Part shown: positions 23,359-42,366 of the stretch, piece after piece
Layout: every line of letters starts with the position of its first letter
Position numbering within the stretch: position 1 is the stretch's first letter
Source: Lutibacter flavus
GTDB taxonomy: Bacteria > Bacteroidota > Bacteroidia > Flavobacteriales > Flavobacteriaceae
Assembly: GCF_900188355.1 (NCBI RefSeq)
Contig: NZ_FZNX01000003.1
Coordinates: 317,501-381,500, forward strand
Direction of reading: 5' to 3'
Length of the DNA stretch: 64,000 nucleotides
Position numbers and translations under genes: made by a program
The notes under the pieces: model-generated
What the model was told of the DNA's origin: nothing
What the model saw: only the letters and a program-made list of their open reading frames with translations
The model's database searches: none

Positions 23359-25044
23359 ATGAAAAAATTATTTATAATCCTGTTAGTTAGTTTTACTTTA
23401 ACGCAATGCATAGCTATAAAAGCCGAATCAACTACAAGTACACCTATTGAAAGCTCAACAAAAACCTTTCAATCAAAACTTCAAAAAAATCCAAAATTAA
23501 TTGTAGGTATTGTGGTAGATCAAATGCGATACGATTATTTAATCAAATTTTACAACAAATACGGTGAAGGTGGTTTTAAAAAGTTAATGAATGAAGGTTA
23601 TAATTTAAAAAATGTTCATTATAATTACATACCAACTTATACGGCAGTTGGACATACTTCAATTTATACTGGAACAACTCCAGTTAATCACGGAATTATA
23701 TCAAATAATTGGTACGATAAATACGAAAAAAAATCAATTTACTGTGTAGATGATGCCAATTACGAAACTATTGGAGCTCAAACTGGAGGGAAAAAATCTC
23801 CTCATAAAATGCTAACAACAACTGTAACCGATCAGTTAAAATTAGCTCAAAATATGCAGGGAAAATCTATTGGTATTGCCATAAAAGATAGATCAGCCAT
23901 TTTACCTGCGGGGCATACTGCAGATGCCGCTTACTGGTTTGAAGGTGGAGATGAAGGGAAATTTATTTCAAGTACTTTTTATATGAATGAATTACCGAAT
24001 TGGGTGAATGATTTTAACAATTCTGGAAAAGCAAATGGCTATTTAAATGAAACTTGGAATACCTACTATAATATTTCAACATATACCGAAACTTTGCCAG
24101 ACAACAACAAATTTGAAGGTTTATTTGAAGGAAAAACCACGCCAACTTTTCCATATAATTTAGCTGAATTACGAAAACTAAATGGAAATTACAGTCTTTT
24201 AAAAGCAGTTCCATCGGGTAATACAATTACAACCGATTTTGTTGAAGCAGCTATAAAAGGCGAAAATCTGGGAAAAGGAAATTTTACCGATTTTTTAGCA
24301 ATTAGTTATTCCAGTACCGACTATGTAGGTCATCAATTTGGTGTTAATGCTAAAGAGTTAGAAGATACTTATATTAGATTAGATAAAGATTTAGAACGTT
24401 TATTAAATTATTTAGATGCTGAAGTTGGAGAAAATAATTACACTATTTTCTTAACAGCCGATCACGCTGCAGTTCAGGTACCATCTTATTTAAACTCCTT
24501 AAAAATTCCAGGAGGGTATTTTGATAATGATAAATTTGAAGAATTTGTAAATAACATTACTTTGGAATATTTTAATTCTAAAGAGTTAATTGAAGATATA
24601 TCTAACTACCAAATTTTCTTGAATAAGGAAAAAATTAAGCAATTAAATCTTGACATTCATAAAGTATCTCAAACCATTGCTGATGAAATTATTTCTTTTG
24701 AGAATGTTTATAAAACCGTAACAGCTCATACTTTACAAACCACTAGTTTTACTTCTGGTATATTGGAAACACTTCAAAATGGGTATAACCAAAAATTATC
24801 TGGAGATATATTATTTGTCCCAAATCCATCAACTATCTCTTATTCAAAAACCGGATCCACACATGGATCAGGTTATGCATATGATACCCACGTTCCTTTA
24901 ATTTTTTATGGTGCAAACATTGATTTCGGTAGCTCAAATAAATACTATCCAATTATTGATATTACACCAACCATATCAAACTTTTTAAATATAACAGAAC
25001 CTAATGGTTCTACAGGAAAAGCAATACTTGAAGTATTAAAATAA
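23359..25044 (+). CDS. PafA-type alkaline phosphatase
   Basis: A 561-residue periplasmic phosphomonoesterase of the alkaline phosphatase superfamily. It has a signal with FTLTQC (possibly a lipoprotein). The metal ligand lies in GIVVDQMRYDYL, the nucleophile Thr in PTYTAVGHTSIYTG, the Asn in PVNHGII, and the PafA-specific Lys/Arg pair in IKDRSAILPAGH. Zinc ligands are in SSTDYVGHQFG, LTADHAAVQVP and SKTGSTHGSGY. The last 83 bases (24962-25044, encoding TPTISNFLNITEPNGSTGKA and the end) are repeated exactly at 29009-29091. The protein itself is intact. Confidence 0.92.
   Translation: MKKLFIILLVSFTLTQCIAIKAESTTSTPIESSTKTFQSKLQKNPKLIVGIVVDQMRYDYLIKFYNKYGEGGFKKLMNEGYNLKNVHYNYIPTYTAVGHTSIYTGTTPVNHGIISNNWYDKYEKKSIYCVDDANYETIGAQTGGKKSPHKMLTTTVTDQLKLAQNMQGKSIGIAIKDRSAILPAGHTADAAYWFEGGDEGKFISSTFYMNELPNWVNDFNNSGKANGYLNETWNTYYNISTYTETLPDNNKFEGLFEGKTTPTFPYNLAELRKLNGNYSLLKAVPSGNTITTDFVEAAIKGENLGKGNFTDFLAISYSSTDYVGHQFGVNAKELEDTYIRLDKDLERLLNYLDAEVGENNYTIFLTADHAAVQVPSYLNSLKIPGGYFDNDKFEEFVNNITLEYFNSKELIEDISNYQIFLNKEKIKQLNLDIHKVSQTIADEIISFENVYKTVTAHTLQTTSFTSGILETLQNGYNQKLSGDILFVPNPSTISYSKTGSTHGSGYAYDTHVPLIFYGANIDFGSSNKYYPIIDITPTISNFLNITEPNGSTGKAILEVLK
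24962..25044 (+). repeat. 83-bp direct repeat, copy 1 (phosphatase 3' end)
   Basis: Identical base for base to 29009-29091. It covers the last 27 codons and stop of the intact phosphatase gene. With the three bases before the A/T mismatch at 24961 the similarity extends slightly (GAT). It marks the left border of a 3,964-bp insert (25045-29008). Confidence 0.95.
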
Positions 25045-25076
25045 TTAGAAGCTATTTAAAAAGTAAAATTTTTGAC

Positions 25077-25206
25077 AACCTGTTTTTCAACTCTGCATCC
25101 AGTTATTGAGCTCAGTAGAAATACAGGTTCTCATCATAATTATTGATTATCCGTGAGATGAGATTCTTAAATCGAAGATTCACGAATTCCTTACTCTTAA
25201 GTAAGG
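25077..25206. repeat. Inverted repeats in the left non-coding end of the insert
   Basis: AACCTGTTTTTC (25077-25088) and GAAATACAGGTT (25118-25129) pair at 11 of 12 positions. A second hairpin, CCTTACT/AGTAAGG with loop CTTA, lies at 25189-25206. On the minus strand both fall just after the receptor stop and could end its transcript, though no T-run follows. No gene is seen in the 249 bases 25045-25293. Confidence 0.5.
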
Positions 25207-25293
25207 AAAAGATGAGTAAATAAATACAGAATGAGTGACTTTTAAAAATTTCATCAAAATCTTTAATTATTACTTTTTGAAAGTTAATTGACT

Positions 25294-27939
25294 TTAAAAT
25301 GAAAATTTAATACTTGCTAAAACCTGAGAAGGTCTTAGTTTGTAGCTATTTTCTACATACGTAAACTCGTTGGTATAAACATTTACAAATTCATTTGTAT
25401 TTAAAACATTGTTCCAACTTAAATTTAAATCAATATTTGATTGTTTAAAAGTGTATTGATAACTAAAATTTAAAAAATAATTAGAAGAATTTTTTTCTGA
25501 AAGAGAATTACGATAATACTCATTAGTACACTTTAAATATTGATTATCTGTTAAGTAAAAGAATAAATTTAAAACATGTTTATTCGTTTCTACCTGTCTC
25601 AACTGAACTTCATCAAAAGATGATTTATAAATTGAAATTGCAGCAACATATTGTAAGCTTAACCAACTAAAAATTTCTGTATCTAAATTTGCATCCATAT
25701 GGATATTGTTCTTTTCTACATTTGTAAAAGTATCATTTAGAAGTTGCTCTTGATTTGATTGATTGTATCTAGCATTTAGTTTAATTGTGGTTTTTATTTT
25801 TTTAAAGTATTTACTTCCTCCCAAGCTATAATTATTATAATTTATAAAATTATCATTTTCTATTGCCTCTAAAATAATAGCACCATTTTCGTCTATTTCA
25901 TTTTTATACAGCAAGTTGTTTTTAGTACGAGAAAAAGAATATGCTCCATTAATAAAAATTTGTTTTATAGGGTTTCTATAGGATACAGCTCCTCTATAAA
26001 TCTGATTAACTTGTTGTGAAATTGGAGCATTGTAACGATTTAAATTCCTGTAATTCGTTAACATAAAACCAGAATACAAACGACTAACGTCACCATAATT
26101 ATAGTTTAATCCAGCAGTAAAACTAGTTTCCCAAAAAGCAGTTAATTTCTTTTTTAAATAGAAATTGGGTTCAAAAACCAATCGATTTAAAGCTCGGTTA
26201 TTTGAATAGTTTTGATCTTCTAATTTAATATGTAGCATTGAAATTGGCATTTTTAATCTCAACTTCCAAAAATCATCCTTGCTTTTAAATTGTATTACGT
26301 TTTCAAAATAGCCTTTTGAAGTTGTAAAATCAAGCCGATTTAAAAAATCCAGGTCTGTATTTTGTTTATTTTCAAACACTTCTAAATCACTATTTAATTG
26401 CTGGTTTTGAATGGAAAACCCAATTTTTGATGCAATTGTAAATTGTTTTAATGCCTTTGTTAAACTTGCTGAATTATCGGCAAATAAACGAGTAGATTCT
26501 AATAATTGGTTAATTTTAGAATATGGTTTTCCATTATTTAATAAATTTAAAAATTGACCTGGGGTTACTTCTAAATCTTGATTGGTTTTGGTATATCCTA
26601 TATTAGATTGAAAATCTATTAGTTGCTTACCAAGAGTTGTAATTAGTTGTAATTTGTTACGAATAGCAATAAATGGATTGCTTAAATTTTGTTCTAAACT
26701 AGTTTCTGTCAATTGTGTTATTCCTCTTTTTGAATTCCAATACTTGTTAACTTCAAAATTATTTTTAATATAATTACTTTTCGTATTCTTTTCAATTATT
26801 AGTTTACTCTGAAGGTTACTAGTGAATAGCTTATTCTGATTGTTTTCTAGTAAATTAATGGTATCGGTAGGTGTAAAAAAACGGGTGTTGGAATTTCCAC
26901 TTTGCTTTTGAAAATCATTTAAATAGGAAACATTTAGTTTTAGAATAACATCCTTTTTAATTTGTTGTAAAACATTTACAGAAGCTAAATGCACATTATT
27001 ATCTAACCAAAGTTCTTGTAGAAATGGCGGTTTAGAAAGTTGGGTAATAGATAACCAATTTGTTTTTTCTATGCTGATATTATTACCTGTGTTTTCACTT
27101 GAAAAATTATAAATTTGACGTGAAATATCGGTGCCGGTATTGTTACTCTGATAGGTTACTATAGCTTGCCGTTTTTTGGAAAACAACATTGGCGTAAATT
27201 TAGCCTTCCAAAGTAGTGGTGAGAATCCTGCTCCAAGCTCTGCATTTCCACTAATTGTTAATTTTTTTTTCAATTTAATATTTAGAGAAGATCGCTCTGA
27301 AAAAACTAAACTATCAAGAATTTTTAAAGGTTGGTGGTTTTCCAAGATTTGTACTTTAGATACATCATCTGCAGAAATATTTTCATTAGCCAAATTATAA
27401 CGCCCTTCCATCAAATCCAAACCTTCTATATAATATTTCTGAATAGGTTTTCCTTGATATAATATTGCTCCACTAGGCATAATTTCTATACCAGGCATTT
27501 TTTTTATCACATCAGCAATCACACGATCTTTTTGATCTTTAAAAGCAGCTACTGAAAAACTGAGTGTATCTCCATGTTGTTCAATAATTTTTCTTTCTAC
27601 AAATACTTCTTTTAGATTTTCCGTTGAAGGAAATAATTGAACCAAAAGTTGCTGCTTTTTATTATAAATATTTTTAATCCATGTAGTATAACCTAGATAA
27701 GAAACTTTAAATATTAATGAGCCAGTTATATCTTTTACATTAGTTTTAAACTTTCCTTGAGTGTCTGATATGTCATATGCCAAAATAGAAGTACTGGTCT
27801 TTTTACTAATAATTACAGTTGCTCCACTTAATGGTTGTCCTTTTTCATCATTAATTACCCCCGAAATTACAGATTGTGAATAGTTTTTAAAAAAAACTAA
27901 AGAAAACATCAAAAAAATATAAGTTTTAAAACTCCTCAT
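25294..27939 (-). CDS. TonB-dependent receptor-like barrel, partner of GLPGLI protein
   Basis: An 881-residue outer-membrane protein with a signal peptide (FLMFSLVFFKNYSQS). The N-terminal carboxypeptidase-like domain is VISGVINDEKGQPLSGATVI. The plug-like segment reads LKEVFVERKI, then GDTLSFSVAAFKDQKDRVIA, DVIKKMPGIEIMPSGAILYQ and GKPIQKYYIEGLDLMEGRYN, a pattern specific to the receptors that accompany GLPGLI proteins rather than to siderophore receptors. A barrel of about 600 residues follows, ending SIKFSF. No TonB box is obvious. It starts one base after the GLPGLI stop. The ligand is unknown. It lies wholly within the putative insert. Confidence 0.85.
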   Translation of the reverse strand: MRSFKTYIFLMFSLVFFKNYSQSVISGVINDEKGQPLSGATVIISKKTSTSILAYDISDTQGKFKTNVKDITGSLIFKVSYLGYTTWIKNIYNKKQQLLVQLFPSTENLKEVFVERKIIEQHGDTLSFSVAAFKDQKDRVIADVIKKMPGIEIMPSGAILYQGKPIQKYYIEGLDLMEGRYNLANENISADDVSKVQILENHQPLKILDSLVFSERSSLNIKLKKKLTISGNAELGAGFSPLLWKAKFTPMLFSKKRQAIVTYQSNNTGTDISRQIYNFSSENTGNNISIEKTNWLSITQLSKPPFLQELWLDNNVHLASVNVLQQIKKDVILKLNVSYLNDFQKQSGNSNTRFFTPTDTINLLENNQNKLFTSNLQSKLIIEKNTKSNYIKNNFEVNKYWNSKRGITQLTETSLEQNLSNPFIAIRNKLQLITTLGKQLIDFQSNIGYTKTNQDLEVTPGQFLNLLNNGKPYSKINQLLESTRLFADNSASLTKALKQFTIASKIGFSIQNQQLNSDLEVFENKQNTDLDFLNRLDFTTSKGYFENVIQFKSKDDFWKLRLKMPISMLHIKLEDQNYSNNRALNRLVFEPNFYLKKKLTAFWETSFTAGLNYNYGDVSRLYSGFMLTNYRNLNRYNAPISQQVNQIYRGAVSYRNPIKQIFINGAYSFSRTKNNLLYKNEIDENGAIILEAIENDNFINYNNYSLGGSKYFKKIKTTIKLNARYNQSNQEQLLNDTFTNVEKNNIHMDANLDTEIFSWLSLQYVAAISIYKSSFDEVQLRQVETNKHVLNLFFYLTDNQYLKCTNEYYRNSLSEKNSSNYFLNFSYQYTFKQSNIDLNLSWNNVLNTNEFVNVYTNEFTYVENSYKLRPSQVLASIKFSF

Positions 27940-27940
27940 A

Positions 27941-28744
27941 TTATTTTAGTTCGAGAGGGTTATTTTCTTTGTTTAACATTTCCGTCCAATACTTCAAGTA
28001 TTTTTTATGATTTTCGGGAGAAATTTTCATATTGGGGTTATTAGCATAAGTAAAAGGATCGCTTCGATATCTATGCCAGAGATCTAACAATTCTTCTTTT
28101 TCTGTTTTTACATATTGTTTCAGATTGATTTTATATGGAAGTTTAGGAGTAATTTTTTCGAGCCCAATAAACTCGAACACATAATCGTTATCTGTATCGG
28201 AGATTTCTAGGATTAGACCTGGTAGTCCATTAAACTTGTAAGGACCTTCAGCAATAGGAATTTCAGGGCTGAACCAGGCGATGTAATCTCTCTCTGCAAA
28301 TGAGGTAGTGGCTTTTTGAACTTTATATCCTTTAATAATTTTTGTTTCTTCTGATATTTTCCAATTAAATAGACCTTTATCTTGTATATAATAAAATTGG
28401 TCCTGCATCTTTGGAATTTGTAGTGTGTAATACAATTTATCGGTTCGATTATCCTTTAGAATTTCATAATGAAATTTGGTTAGTGCAAATCTAGAGGTGT
28501 GCCCGGAATTACCTCTAATCACTATAGGATTCGCCAATGTTTTTGCTCGACTTGAAAATATAGAAAGATTATCTCCAAGATAGAGAATCATTAATTCCGA
28601 TTTTGGTTTATCTAAACTAGTAGAATCTAGCTTATAAGTTAAATTATAAGTAATTTTGTAATTGAATTCATCTTTCAATTTGTTTTGTGAAAAACCAATG
28701 AAATTGATTGATGTAAAGAATAAAAATAAATAAAGAGTTTTCAT
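27941..28744 (-). CDS. GLPGLI family exported protein
   Basis: A protein of about 267 residues with a signal peptide (TLYLFLFFTSINFIGFSQ). It contains the defining motif FNGLPGLILEISDTDN near residue 185, preceded by DYIAWFSPEIPIAEGPYKF, both typical of the family. I start it at ATG 28744; an upstream ATG at 28780 would add 12 residues before the signal peptide. The family is restricted to Bacteroidota and functionally uncharacterised; members are usually paired, as here, with a downstream receptor-like barrel. The gap of one base implies translational coupling. Confidence 0.88.
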   Translation of the reverse strand: MKTLYLFLFFTSINFIGFSQNKLKDEFNYKITYNLTYKLDSTSLDKPKSELMILYLGDNLSIFSSRAKTLANPIVIRGNSGHTSRFALTKFHYEILKDNRTDKLYYTLQIPKMQDQFYYIQDKGLFNWKISEETKIIKGYKVQKATTSFAERDYIAWFSPEIPIAEGPYKFNGLPGLILEISDTDNDYVFEFIGLEKITPKLPYKINLKQYVKTEKEELLDLWHRYRSDPFTYANNPNMKISPENHKKYLKYWTEMLNKENNPLELK

Positions 28745-28865
28745 AGTTTCTTTTTTAAAATAAAGTTTATTAATCATCAAATATTATTCCATAACTATAT
28801 AATGAATTTATACATTATAATATAATTATAAGATTTTCAGAGCAATTAAAGCTAAAACCCGACAA

Positions 28866-28886
28866 CGAAGATTTACAAATTCTTTA
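28866..28886 (+). repeat. Short imperfect direct repeat near the right end of the insert
   Basis: CGAAGATTTACAAATTCTTTA matches 25173-25193 (near the left end) at 18 of 21 positions in the same orientation. Both copies read RRFTNSL in the plus frame; the right one sits in a short frame KTRQRRFTNSLKKYIGINL followed by a stop. These may be remnants of a gene end, of unknown identity. The gap 28781-29008 otherwise shows only AT-rich sequence. Confidence 0.4.
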
Positions 28887-29008
28887 AAGAAATACATTGG
28901 AATTAATTTATAAATTAAGGTTGATGAAAATTCCACTTTTCAGAGCACCACTAAATATATTTTTAATTTTAGTGTATCTAAAATTTAAATTCAAATCTTC
29001 AAGTGATT

Positions 29009-29091
29009 TTACACCAACCATATCAAACTTTTTAAATATAACAGAACCTAATGGTTCTACAGGAAAAGCAATACTTGAAGTATTAAAATAA
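29009..29091 (+). pseudogene. Displaced phosphatase 3' end (83-bp direct repeat, copy 2)
   Basis: An exact copy of the last 83 bases of the phosphatase gene, with no phosphatase sequence before it. It retains the stop codon and runs directly into the terminator, so it is most simply the original chromosomal gene end left behind by the insertion. A 64-codon open frame (28897-29091) passes through it but has a non-coding-like first half and is not a credible gene. Confidence 0.85.
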
Positions 29092-29120
29092 AAAAAGCCC
29101 TCAATTGAGGGCTTTTTTTA
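29092..29120. terminator. Bidirectional terminator
   Basis: Perfect palindrome GCCCTCAATTGAGGGC (29097-29112) with an A-run before and seven T after. It stands between the displaced phosphatase tail and the convergent KAS III gene and probably served the phosphatase before the insertion. Confidence 0.9.
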
Positions 29121-29135
29121 TTTTAAGAATTATTT

Positions 29136-30203
29136 TTAATACCTATAAACAATAGCATTAATATTCATTCCCGCTCCAACTGAAGCAAAAATAACAACAT
29201 CTCCTTTATTAATTTCTTGGTTTTCTAGTTTACCTCTTTTAACTAAATCAAGTAAAGTTGGAACCGTGGCTACAGAACTATTTCCTAATTTATATATACT
29301 CATAGGCATAACATCTTTAGGCACTTTAGATTTATATAAACGATAAAAGCGTTTAATAATGGCTTCATCCATTTTTTCATTTGCCTGATGAAGAAATACT
29401 TTTTTAACTTCTGAAATATCTATTCCGCTTTTATCAAGTGCCGATTTCATTGCTAAAGGCACATGATTTAAACCATATTCATAAATTTTACGTCCAAGCA
29501 TTTTAATATAGCCAACATCTTGATTTTCTTTTTTATTATATGATTTTCCGAAATATAAATAATAGCACTCGTCTACAGTATTTGTTTGGGCAGCATGACT
29601 TAAAATACCTTCAAATCCATTTTCAACAGCTTCAACAATACAAGCACCTGCTCCGTCAGAAAAAATCATTGAATCCCTATCAAATGGATCAATAACTCTT
29701 GATAGTGTTTCTGTTCCAATAACCAAGCATTTTTTTGCTATACCCGATTTTATAAAAGCTTCGGCTTGAATAACTCCTTGTATCCAACCTGGACAACCAA
29801 AAAGTATGTCGTATGCAACGCAATTTGGATTTTCAATACCAAGCCTAAATTTAACTCTTGAGGCTAAACTCGGCAACATATCACTTTGAATAGAATTACT
29901 CTTTACATCTCCAAAATTATGAGCTAAAATAATGTAATCTATATCTTCTTTATTAATTTTAGCATCTTCAATCGCTTGTTTAGCAGCAAAATAGCCTAAA
30001 TCTGATGAATTTAGATCGTCTGATGCATATCTCCTTTCCTCTATTCCCGTTATCGCCTTAAACTTTTCTATTACAACTTCATTTTCGTATTCAAAAGGGG
30101 TTCCATCTTCGTTTAAAAAAACACTATTTTTAAAATCTGAATTCTTTTTTACTACACTAGGAATATAGCTTCCAACTCCTGTAATTACTGATTGTATTTT
30201 CAT
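29136..30203 (-). CDS. 3-oxoacyl-ACP synthase III family protein
   Basis: A 355-residue thiolase-fold enzyme of the KAS III type. The catalytic triad is visible: Cys in ILFGCPGWIQGVIQAE, His in VFLHQANEKMDEAI, and Asn in YKLGNSSVATVP. It shares the FabH layout but is longer than housekeeping FabH (about 320 residues) and has divergent sequence around the Cys (FGCPGW rather than AACAGF), so it may condense an unusual primer and belong to lipid or secondary metabolism. It is the last gene of a minus-strand run from porU. Confidence 0.85.
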   Translation of the reverse strand: MKIQSVITGVGSYIPSVVKKNSDFKNSVFLNEDGTPFEYENEVVIEKFKAITGIEERRYASDDLNSSDLGYFAAKQAIEDAKINKEDIDYIILAHNFGDVKSNSIQSDMLPSLASRVKFRLGIENPNCVAYDILFGCPGWIQGVIQAEAFIKSGIAKKCLVIGTETLSRVIDPFDRDSMIFSDGAGACIVEAVENGFEGILSHAAQTNTVDECYYLYFGKSYNKKENQDVGYIKMLGRKIYEYGLNHVPLAMKSALDKSGIDISEVKKVFLHQANEKMDEAIIKRFYRLYKSKVPKDVMPMSIYKLGNSSVATVPTLLDLVKRGKLENQEINKGDVVIFASVGAGMNINAIVYRY

Positions 30204-38046: not shown

Positions 38047-39306
38047 ATGAAAATCGAACAATTATATACATTATTTAAACAAAATTATTTAGTAGATACT
38101 GACACCCGAAAAATAAGAAATGGGAGTTTGTTTTTTGCTCTAAAAGGAGATAATTTTAACGGAAATAAATTTGCAAAAGAGGCTTTAAGTAAAGGTGCAC
38201 GTTTTGCTATAATTGATGAGGAAATTTATAATACGGAACCAAATACAATTTTAGTTAAAGATGTTTTAACTACACTTCAAAAATTAGCAAATTATAACAG
38301 GAGGCAACTTAATATTCCAATAATTTCATTAACTGGAAGCAACGGAAAAACAACTACAAAAGAATTAATTAATGCTGTGCTCTCAAAAAAGTATAAAACT
38401 ACGGCTACTTTTGGAAATTTAAACAACGAAATTGGTGTACCGCTTACGTTACTTTCAATGACACCAAAAACAGAAATTGGAATTGTAGAAATGGGAGCCA
38501 ATCATTTAAAAGAGATTGAGCTTTTATGTACTATTACTGAACCAAATTATGGCTTAATAACAAATTTTGGAAAAGCTCATTTGGAGGGCTTTGGAGGTTT
38601 TGAAGGAGTTATTAAGGGAAAGTCAGAGTTGTATCAATTCCTTAGAAATAACCATGGTAAAGCCTTTATTAATTCGGATGATGAGCTTCAATTAAAACAG
38701 TCTATTGGAATAGATTCTATAGAGTTCAATAGAAATAAAATAAAATTTATTGATGCAAATCCTTTTGTCTCTGTTGAATTCAATAAAACACAAATTTCCA
38801 GTAATTTAATTGGAAAATACAATTACAGCAATATCGCAGCAGCGATTGCAATTGGTAATTATTTTAAAGTTTCAGAAGAGCATATTAAGACTGCTATTGA
38901 AACTTATATTCCAACTAATAATAGGTCTCAAATAATTGAAAAGGGTGATTTAAAAATAATATTAGATGCTTACAACGCAAACCCAAGTAGTATGCAGGCA
39001 GCTTTGGAAAACTTTAATCAATTAAAAGATAAGAACAAAATTGTTTTTTTAGGAGATATGTTTGAGCTAGGAAATACAAGTGCAATTGAACATCAGAAAA
39101 TTGCTGAATTAGCGACGTCTTTTAATTTTGACAACGTATTTTTAATAGGAAAAGCATTTTCTACAACTAGTGTAAAAAATGCTTTTATTTATTCTAATTT
39201 TGAAGATTTTAAATCTTCAAACAAAAATTTAATTTTAAATAATTCCACAATTTTAATTAAAGGATCTCGTGGAATGGCTTTAGAAAGAATTTTAGACTTG
39301 TTCTAA
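38047..39306 (+). CDS. murF: UDP-N-acetylmuramoyl-tripeptide--D-Ala-D-Ala ligase
   Basis: A 419-residue Mur ligase that adds D-Ala-D-Ala to UDP-MurNAc-tripeptide in peptidoglycan synthesis. The N-terminal binding domain has DTRKIRNGSLFFALKGDNFN. The ATP loop is SLTGSNGKTTTKEL, followed by TFGNLNNEIGVPLTLL and EMGANHLKEIE. The C-terminal domain has LDAYNANPSSM and FLGDMFELG. It overlaps the convergent kinase gene by 15 bases at the 3-prime end. Confidence 0.95.
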   Translation: MKIEQLYTLFKQNYLVDTDTRKIRNGSLFFALKGDNFNGNKFAKEALSKGARFAIIDEEIYNTEPNTILVKDVLTTLQKLANYNRRQLNIPIISLTGSNGKTTTKELINAVLSKKYKTTATFGNLNNEIGVPLTLLSMTPKTEIGIVEMGANHLKEIELLCTITEPNYGLITNFGKAHLEGFGGFEGVIKGKSELYQFLRNNHGKAFINSDDELQLKQSIGIDSIEFNRNKIKFIDANPFVSVEFNKTQISSNLIGKYNYSNIAAAIAIGNYFKVSEEHIKTAIETYIPTNNRSQIIEKGDLKIILDAYNANPSSMQAALENFNQLKDKNKIVFLGDMFELGNTSAIEHQKIAELATSFNFDNVFLIGKAFSTTSVKNAFIYSNFEDFKSSNKNLILNNSTILIKGSRGMALERILDLF

Positions 39307-40152
39307 TTTTAATTTTTCTCTATGATACTCAATTAAACCATCAATTGGTCTTCTAACAATTTTACCTAATTGTACATTATATTTTTTAGCAACTTTCTCA
39401 ATAATATCTTTAGCAAAAAAAGCGATTGAACCTACAAAATGTACAGGTACAGTTTTAACTTCTTTATAAGTCAATATTCTAGTTTTAAAAAATACATTTA
39501 TTCCTTTTTCCAGAACCTTATCAGAATATGAATTTCTTTCGTTTCTAAAAATAAATTCAGCAAAATTGGCCAAATATGTATTAGGGTTGTTCTCTTTATA
39601 AATATTTCTTTTAATAGTATCAGCCTCTAAGTCAAACTGAGTTTCAAACTTCTTTGCACTCTTTTTCGGCATTCTCTTATAGTAATAATCTCTAATTAAT
39701 CTTTTACCAAAATAATTACCACTTGCTTCATCCATTAAAATAAAACCTAATGAAGGAACTCCATTAATTACATCTGTTCCATCAAAATAACTACTGTTAG
39801 ATCCAGTTCCCAAAATACATACAATTCCAGGTTCAGTAGTTACCGCATAAGTTGCAGCATATGTATCTTCCTTAACTTCAACTAATGCATTAATAAAAAA
39901 TGATTCAAATACTGATTTTAAAAGCAACGTAGGTTTTTCGGTACCACATCCTGCACCATAAAAATAAACATTTGTAATTTTATCTTTATATTTGGATAAG
40001 TCCTCATTCTCCTGAATGCGTTTTAACATTAAATCCTCACTAGAAACAGCTGGATTTAACCCTCCAGTTCTAGTTTTAAGCAATTGTTCACCCGATTTAT
40101 CAAGTAAAATCCAATCTGCTTTTGTGGAACCTCCATCAGCTATTAGAATCAT
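39292..40152 (-). CDS. BadF/BadG-type ATPase, N-acetylglucosamine kinase-like
   Basis: A 286-residue ASKHA-fold protein. The N-terminal phosphate loop is ILIADGGSTKADWILLD, the second ILGTGSNSSYFDG, and the segment GFILMDEASGNYFGKRLIRD is typical of the bacterial N-acetylglucosamine kinase-like BadF family. Probably it phosphorylates an amino sugar or glucose; the substrate is not proven. It lies 29 bases after gapA in a pfkA-gapA run, which supports a sugar-kinase role. Confidence 0.8.
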   Translation of the reverse strand: MILIADGGSTKADWILLDKSGEQLLKTRTGGLNPAVSSEDLMLKRIQENEDLSKYKDKITNVYFYGAGCGTEKPTLLLKSVFESFFINALVEVKEDTYAATYAVTTEPGIVCILGTGSNSSYFDGTDVINGVPSLGFILMDEASGNYFGKRLIRDYYYKRMPKKSAKKFETQFDLEADTIKRNIYKENNPNTYLANFAEFIFRNERNSYSDKVLEKGINVFFKTRILTYKEVKTVPVHFVGSIAFFAKDIIEKVAKKYNVQLGKIVRRPIDGLIEYHREKLKLEQV

Positions 40153-42202: not shown

Positions 42203-42220
42203 AGGTTAAAATTAATTATT

Positions 42221-42255
42221 CAAAGGTACTTTGTAATGCTATTTCATCCTACAAA
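42221..42255 (-). promoter_or_regulatory. Promoter of the pfkA operon
   Basis: On the minus strand TTTG (42255-42252), a 23-base spacer and TACCTTTG (42228-42221) resemble the Bacteroidota consensus, about 19 bases before the pfkA start. The spacer is at the long end. Confidence 0.5.
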
Positions 42256-42289
42256 TCTACACAATTTTAACTAAAACGATTTCGCTCTT

Positions 42290-42321
42290 AAACCTCTAAA
42301 AACAAGTGCTTTTAGAGGTTT
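42290..42321 (-). terminator. Hairpin at the end of the alpha-glucan operon
   Basis: A perfect 12-bp stem AAACCTCTAAAA/TTTTAGAGGTTT with an 8-base loop lies 46 bases after the stop of the last alpha-amylase gene. The following T-run on the minus strand is short, so it may be partial or serve as an mRNA 3-prime protector. Confidence 0.6.
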
Positions 42322-42366
42322 AAAAAATCCGAATAGAAAACTAACTTTCAGTTATTTACGATAAAT

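Follow-up and report, generated by a model that had tools for sequence, protein, structure and literature searches.

How does a segment of DNA come to lie between an intact gene and a second copy of that gene's end? The question is raised by Lutibacter flavus (3.89 Mb in 8 contigs; G000 in our labelling), in which a 64-kb stretch of a 505-kb contig (hereafter the window) contains the gene for the alkaline phosphatase PafA, a segment encoding a GLPGLI family protein and an 881-aa receptor-like protein (hereafter the pair), and, on the far side of this segment, an orphan copy of the pafA end (Table 1). Comparison with congeners identifies the segment as an insertion at the pafA stop codon. By analogy with a second locus, the repeat may have been left by a homology-anchored import in which one joint was non-homologous, a reading to which we give a little under an even chance.

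The pafA gene end and its insert

The direct repeat covers 88 nt (24957-25044 and 29004-29091) with a single mismatch at 24961/29008, and is exact over the 83 nt from there through the stop codon (24962-25044 and 29009-29091), past which not one base is shared before the first mismatch. Copy 1 has an A at the mismatch, the same as in the congener G013, and copy 2 a T, which could be either a new mutation or part of the joint. A profile of congener pafA ends matched 29004-29090 (E 8e-13), and the similarity to the pafA end begins abruptly at 29004. Being the sole exact direct repeat of at least 24 bp with a spacing of up to 15 kb in the window, it is far beyond chance, and a whole-genome search with the pafA end found copy 2 as the only other place. 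The 83-bp stretch differs by 19-37% in 15 congeners while the two copies in the window are 100% identical, indicating that the duplication is recent or has been homogenised. A first-pass annotation of this DNA had reported the 83-bp identity, taken one copy as the end of an intact phosphatase gene and the other as an orphan at the terminator, and seen only a GLPGLI and a receptor gene in the 3,964 bp between them. All of this was confirmed, by the direct repeat itself, by the 561-aa open reading frame (ORF) and the hairpin at 29078-29131, and by family matches, with the GLPGLI protein scoring 178 bits against a curated cut-off of 50 for TIGR01200.

Table 1. Features of the pafA locus and of related sites in the window
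Feature	Position	Strand	Basis or remark
pafA, alkaline phosphatase PafA, intact, 561 aa	23359..25044	+	NF042991 alk_phos_PafA, E 1.5e-241; ORF
Repeat copy 1: pafA end through stop codon	24962..25044	+	24957-25044 with one mismatch
Inserted segment, 3,964 bp	25045..29008		Absent between pafA and KAS in 12 congeners with both genes
Decayed ~130-bp interspersed hairpin repeat	25047..25185	-	nhmmer E 2.4e-4; starts 2 bp inside left joint
881-aa receptor-like protein, CarboxypepD_reg N-terminal domain	25294..27939	-	PF13715, PF13620
GLPGLI family protein, 267 aa	27941..28744	-	TIGR01200, E 2.3e-52
Partial, weakly matching hairpin-repeat copy, in opposite orientation to the left one	28915..28950	+	nhmmer E 0.21 only
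Repeat copy 2: orphan pafA end, gene body absent	29009..29091	+	Direct repeat; congener pafA-end profile
Terminator-like hairpin, native pafA downstream sequence	29078..29131		Inverted repeat; like the type 3' of pafA in G013
Beta-ketoacyl-ACP synthase III-like gene (KAS)	29136..30203	-	PF08545, PF08541; native right neighbour, convergent with pafA
pfkA-amylase gap, site of the pair in L. litoralis	42203..42366		Pair absent here

A strong pafA match was found in 18 congeners, 12 of which had both pafA and KAS on one fetched stretch; in the other six (G003, G008, G014, G015, G017 and G034) the next gene lay off the stretch. The interval between the two genes was shorter than 200 bp in eight of the 12 (G004, G009, G011, G012, G013, G019, G020 and G023) and 744-934 bp, with content other than the pair, in four (G021, G026, G029 and G035). 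Because eight congeners show the short interval and none of the 12 has the pair there, the segment is an insertion at the pafA stop codon: pafA was kept whole, and its native last 83-88 bp were displaced, together with the terminator, to the far side. The first-pass proposal of an insertion that restores the phosphatase end and displaces the native one is thus borne out by the empty sites of relatives. The pafA-KAS junction is a general insertion spot, since four congeners carry different inserts of 744-934 bp; no flanking repeats of at least 30 nt were found across the three of these that were tested (L057, L062 and L073).

The GLPGLI/receptor pair is sporadic in distribution: a relative of the 881-aa protein was found in four of 36 same-genus genomes at E 1e-200 or better (G031, G015, G026 and G034) and in 12 of 299 family genomes, L. 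flavus included, at E 1e-120. In Lutibacter litoralis JCM 13034 (G031, counted as the same genus), the homologue is 86% and its adjacent GLPGLI protein 84% identical, and a second GLPGLI copy accompanies the pair, which is flanked by pfkA and an amylase-like gene and lies ~12 kb away from the synthase gene in the shared neighbourhood. The counterpart of this site in the window is 13 kb from the insert, and the pair was found beside pfkA neither in the window nor in seven congeners inspected. Because the L. litoralis pair occupies another site and has no exact flanking repeat of at least 14 bp within about 3 kb, gene-end duplication is not the general spread route of the pair; the pair moves, though not as a unit with the gene-end repeat. 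Exact repeats within up to 3 kb on each side were sought at 13 of the 20 known loci of the 881-aa protein, our own included (flanks were shorter for G031, G159, G325 and G355; the other loci lay at contig ends in G015, G026 and G082 or had short flanks in G040, G045, G052 and G053). Besides the window, only repeats of 22-49 bp (G128, G034 and G217) or 14 bp (G159 and G093) were found across the pair, and those of G128 and G034, read by eye, appear to be parts of repeated small genes. The first-pass suggestion that GLPGLI/receptor pairs could generally spread in this way is therefore not supported, either by the L. litoralis pair or by the other gene-end scars described below, which enclose other genes.

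The two GLPGLI genes of L. litoralis are in tandem (L067:7539-9258), and the region upstream of the window gene best matches that of the outer copy (81% over 80 nt, vs 76% over 54 nt), which suggests that the single GLPGLI gene of the window resulted from loss by recombination between tandem copies. In G015 (L068:22-3321), the pair lies 3' of a VKOR/thioredoxin fusion gene and two short genes for GG-leader-like peptides, a type assigned by eye; similar peptides apparently occur at the pairs of G128 and G034, also by eye, hinting at a link between GLPGLI/receptor pairs and secreted peptides. A BadF/NagK-like gene of the window (39292-40152; weak PF01869) is 85% identical to that of L. litoralis and 71% to that of G013, vs 95-96% to both for pfkA and the gap beside it, and its surroundings are a mosaic neighbourhood.

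Both ends of the insert carry traces of a ~130-bp hairpin element that is interspersed in the genome (further copies in L089, L091, L092, L097 and L098), has the terminal inverted repeats GAGGCTGTYTAAAAAGTA and by our own reading is placed terminator-like after genes. Decayed copies border the pairs of both L. flavus and L. litoralis, with E below 0.01 on three of the four sides. Transposition by these repeats was rejected: the end copies look too degraded to stem from a recent event, and the right one stops 58 bp short of the joint. Intact terminal inverted repeats, as of a composite transposon or one bounded by miniature inverted-repeat transposable elements, are absent from the segment, and the duplication of 83-88 bp is not a short target duplication. 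A 32-aa reading frame that could have made the right flank a donor-gene end proved to be a translation of the same hairpin repeat.

Gene-end scars at other genes

Two further scars of this kind were found in L. flavus, where direct repeats had been listed over 1.2 Mb of the genome as a control. The end of a DUF58 gene (PF01882) is repeated over 260 bp at 96.5% identity 10.2 kb downstream, against a convergent ROK-family gene (PF00480), and a periplasmic binding protein gene (PF01497; btuF-like, our own label) has its end repeated over 219 bp at 84% identity 5.9 kb away, against the topoisomerase IV subunit A gene (PF00521; here parC). A search of 996 L. flavus ORFs for orphan gene ends returned seven C-terminal and no N-terminal ones: three clear, one weak (SufS-like, 25 aa at 60%) and three spurious, the last being due to repeated domains or to masking. 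Among 113 stretches from other genomes, picked around scar sites, three C-terminal and no N-terminal orphans were found. This bias does not decide the mechanism, because a duplicated 5' end would separate its gene from the promoter. The DUF58 end is orphaned in L. litoralis and G026, and the btuF-like end in G028 and G034, with a further btuF fragment in G030; DUF58 and ROK overlap or abut with no insert in eight of the 18 congeners fetched. The gene-end scar is therefore recurrent, at three genes in L. flavus and in four relatives. Across the seven scars, identity between the copies is 70-100% over the last 30 nt ahead of the stop codon and 17-47% in the following 30. All scars outside the window (DUF58 in L. 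flavus, L. litoralis and G026; btuF-like in L. flavus, G028 and G034) enclose genes other than the GLPGLI pair.

No recombinase match was obtained for the pair of the window at E 0.001. At E 0.01, none was obtained for nine genes of the L. flavus DUF58 insert (one via its L. litoralis homologue), eight of that of L. litoralis and one of that of G026, for three genes of the L. flavus btuF insert (the longest scanned over its first 795 residues), or for the 187-aa genes of G028 and G034.

The two btuF copies of L. flavus differ in 31 of 72 codons, 21 of them synonymously. Polarised with 22 of the 29 fetched relatives (L333, L334, L336, L340, L341, L343 and L345 left out; G060 is one codon out of register, and the vote is uncorrected for it), the changes number 10 synonymous and 3 non-synonymous in the orphan, 9 and 7 in the intact copy, and 7 unclear. 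The synonymous excess of the orphan has a P of about 1e-4 against an assumed quarter synonymous, and because a dead fragment would lack such an excess, the two copies seem to have diverged as working genes.

A 187-aa gene adjoins btuF in 10 of 29 congeners, in eight with no orphan btuF end and in two (G028 and G034) with such an end. A single btuF clade (support 0.98) unites eight of these ten, G034 included, unlike MlaF/MlaE, which place G034 with G003 and G015. In a window-by-window comparison of the full 388 btuF columns in all 30 rows, seven windows of the G028 gene favour the native type and the last one the cargo-linked type; over columns 315-345 its best match is 0.67 to the cargo-linked and 0.50 to the native type. 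G032, which has the 187-aa gene and no orphan, shows the same pattern, and G034 leans clearly to the native type in the first window only, the later margins being small and mostly towards the cargo-linked type. Among genomes outside the reference groups, a cargo-linked lean in the last window was found in all three with the 187-aa gene, and one above 0.01 in none of the eight without it. The six best matches of each of the orphan tails of G028 and G034 are genomes without the 187-aa gene; parC adjoins the orphan in G034, and the G028 locus ends before parC. In G028, a native gene body seems to carry a foreign tail, after which come the tail-linked neighbour and then a native-type orphan tail, an arrangement that fits one homologous crossover in the gene and one non-homologous joint in the native tail.

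The DUF58 inserts of L. flavus and L. litoralis have a LytTR regulator, a histidine kinase and HBL-domain proteins in common. Third-position identity between the two genomes is 0.74-0.97 for six cargo genes vs 0.60 and 0.67 for the flanks, so the cargo has been exchanged between lineages. At this junction (G000:C8:234344-241823 and L304:1521-8994), Bacillus_HBL genes (PF05791) stand beside the LytTR/histidine kinase pair, two cargo genes are ~99% identical in DNA between the two species, and a GH25 gene (PF01183) lies further right in L. flavus. Several suspected remnants, most of them seen by eye, were rejected: an old DUF58 tail left of the L. flavus DUF58 insert (score 101 vs a maximum of 94 in 100 shuffles) had no profile match, a fragment of an insertion-sequence transposase near the right end of that insert had no Pfam match at E 0.01, and a decayed pafA remnant in the mlaE-KAS gap of L. 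litoralis had no pafA-end profile match up to E 1. Elsewhere in L. flavus (G000:C8:703000-757888; L243-L245), ~18 copies of a ~125-bp repeat are irregularly spaced, often by 0.6-2.5 kb, in a region of small genes that lie mostly on the minus strand. The region looks like a chromosomal integron cassette array, with putative attC sites by resemblance only.

Routes to the scar

In the favoured explanation, carried over to pafA from the btuF locus, the donor would be chromosomal DNA of a close relative in which the cassette follows the pafA 3' end. RecA-type recombination within the pafA end would join the resident gene to the donor tail and cargo, and the donor DNA would at its other end be joined, in the absence of long homology, to a point within the resident pafA that is 83-88 bp short of the stop codon, leaving the native tail as an orphan. 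Since the gene is common to donor and recipient and the downstream sequence is not, similarity would end at the stop codon. A single crossover with a partly deleted circle would yield an equal structure. In favour of import are the empty sites of eight congeners, the recurrence of the scar, the loss of similarity at the stop codon, the synonymous divergence of the L. flavus btuF orphan, the mixed G028 gene, the exchanged DUF58 cargo and published precedents (PMC5361080 and PMC3240628). Of the first-pass idea of a circular intermediate recombining at a homologous segment, the homologous recombination is suggested by the chimeric btuF gene and its native tail, and the circle is only possible. 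The scars at other genes suggest, short of proof, that ordinary recombination between related bacteria brings in such cassettes, rather than elements with an integrase of their own.

Several observations weigh against import. The pafA copies are identical and the last 240 PafA columns stay closest to G013 with no switch, so a foreign intact tail cannot be shown at pafA, and the donor form (pafA followed by the pair, with no scar) was found in none of the genomes compared; the scar is compatible alike with a same-species donor, with a crossover near the stop codon and with duplication in situ. At btuF, the 187-aa gene matches the cobalamin adenosyltransferase family PF01923 (E 8e-6 and, narrowly below the curated cut-off, 7e-5) and is thus a plausible btuF partner rather than a random passenger. 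The G028 shift is modest, G008, a cargo-linked reference genome, has a similar lean in its own body windows, and the most diverged scars, those of G028 and G034, show a small contrast at the stop codon (70-73% vs 43-47%). At DUF58, the L. flavus copies are identical over their last 135 nt and differ in the 5' half of the repeat, whereas a single import would predict the opposite, and each genome's two tails are closer to each other than to those of the other genome, which in part suits in-situ duplication or later gene conversion.

Duplication in situ, in which a cassette was captured at a staggered break or a replication template switch and 83-88 bp of the pafA end were recopied as a long target duplication, is accordingly the main competitor, unlikely as we judge it on balance. 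The identity of the pafA copies, set against the 19-37% divergence among congeners, and the DUF58 tails speak for it. Alone, it gives no account of the drop in similarity at the stop codon in seven cases, of the synonymous divergence between the L. flavus btuF copies or of the mixed G028 gene. The DUF58 likeness within genomes and the undetectable foreign pafA tail set our estimates for import and for in-situ duplication, and the adenosyltransferase-like neighbour together with the modest G028 shift weakens the former and strengthens the latter. That the pair once stood beside pfkA and was moved ~13 kb, through a tandem duplication reaching from inside pafA to a point past the pair and through later deletions, is improbable. 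For it, the L. litoralis pair shares the neighbourhood and has an equal orientation with respect to pfkA, and the joint of a tandem duplication would leave an orphan pafA end beside the right flank. Against it, the insert flanks match the pfkA-amylase gap of neither L. flavus nor G013; their similarity to L. litoralis is confined to the hairpin repeat and the region upstream of GLPGLI, and they match G019 and G036 over 22 nt. The pair is also absent beside pfkA here and in seven congeners.

Integrative elements that use the 3' ends of genes or tRNA genes restore the host gene end and displace the native one. A site-specific element of this type, with an integrase supplied in trans as the first-pass annotation proposed, would explain this anatomy, the end of similarity at the stop codon and the use of DUF58 in three genomes. 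We nevertheless consider it very improbable, because the scanned insert genes lack a recombinase match, orphan lengths at DUF58 differ between genomes (profile starts 68, 129 and 201), three unrelated genes are used within one genome, and the L. litoralis pair has no flanking repeats; no common att core was found, and the genes and repeat starts differ among the scars. An assembly artefact is scarcely credible given the unique flanks on a 505-kb contig, the conserved neighbours on both sides and scars of the same kind in other assemblies.

More broadly, and with more doubt than confidence, many Lutibacter cassettes could be passengers 3' of conserved genes, with recombination at the 3' end importing tail and cargo together and each import leaving the native tail as a datable scar. 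Convergent gene pairs would be preferred, since only a 3'-end duplication spares both genes, the scars would serve as homologous repeats for precise loss or exchange, and a recombinase of the cassette's own would be unneeded. Should gene-end scars indeed record imports, an orphan C-terminal end behind an intact gene would be a simple genome-wide signature of recombinase-free cassette insertion and would show the direction and approximate age of each event, and a question that tends to end in 'unknown mechanism' would become countable and open to transformation tests.

Relation to known systems

In a limited literature search, we came across nothing that we recognised as an account of such scars, with passenger cargo behind conserved genes, in Lutibacter or elsewhere. 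The scars resemble integrative elements at gene or tRNA 3' ends in the restored host gene and the displaced native end, and differ from them in lacking an integrase match and a fixed core and in their variable repeat length. Homology-facilitated illegitimate recombination (HFIR) has been described in naturally competent bacteria (PMC3240628). In an E. coli conjugation study, 56 of 60 clones gave a polymerase chain reaction (PCR) product diagnostic of a partial lacZ duplication, and 14 sequenced duplications measured 109-950 bp, the same order as the 83-262 bp scars here; the authors ascribe them to a single crossover with a partly deleted circle and not to HFIR proper (PMC3240628). HFIR and single-crossover integration would share with our favoured import one homologous anchor and one non-homologous joint. 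That study concerns a laboratory plasmid system, whereas the inserts here are natural, lie at conserved genes and restore the gene end. Variable segments of E. coli, likewise insertions without mobile-element genes, have been attributed to illegitimate recombination, with homology-assisted joining proposed; they are mostly 20-500 bp long, and gene-end scars are not described in the accessible portion of that paper (PMC2884548). Tandem duplications can also arise through transformation (PMC3784515).

The closest natural analogue found is the displacement of effector/immunity modules of the type VI secretion system (T6SS). The displacement reported for Rhs C-termini (PMC8125069) is of the same kind. 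In the T6SS work, modules are displaced successively while immunity genes are retained, and an HFIR-like step is proposed (PMC5361080). There the displaced part belongs to the effector or immunity gene, unlike here, where an unrelated conserved gene serves as anchor and the orphan is a short remnant; in both, a new downstream module is placed on a conserved upstream anchor, and the old 3' part is left orphaned further downstream.

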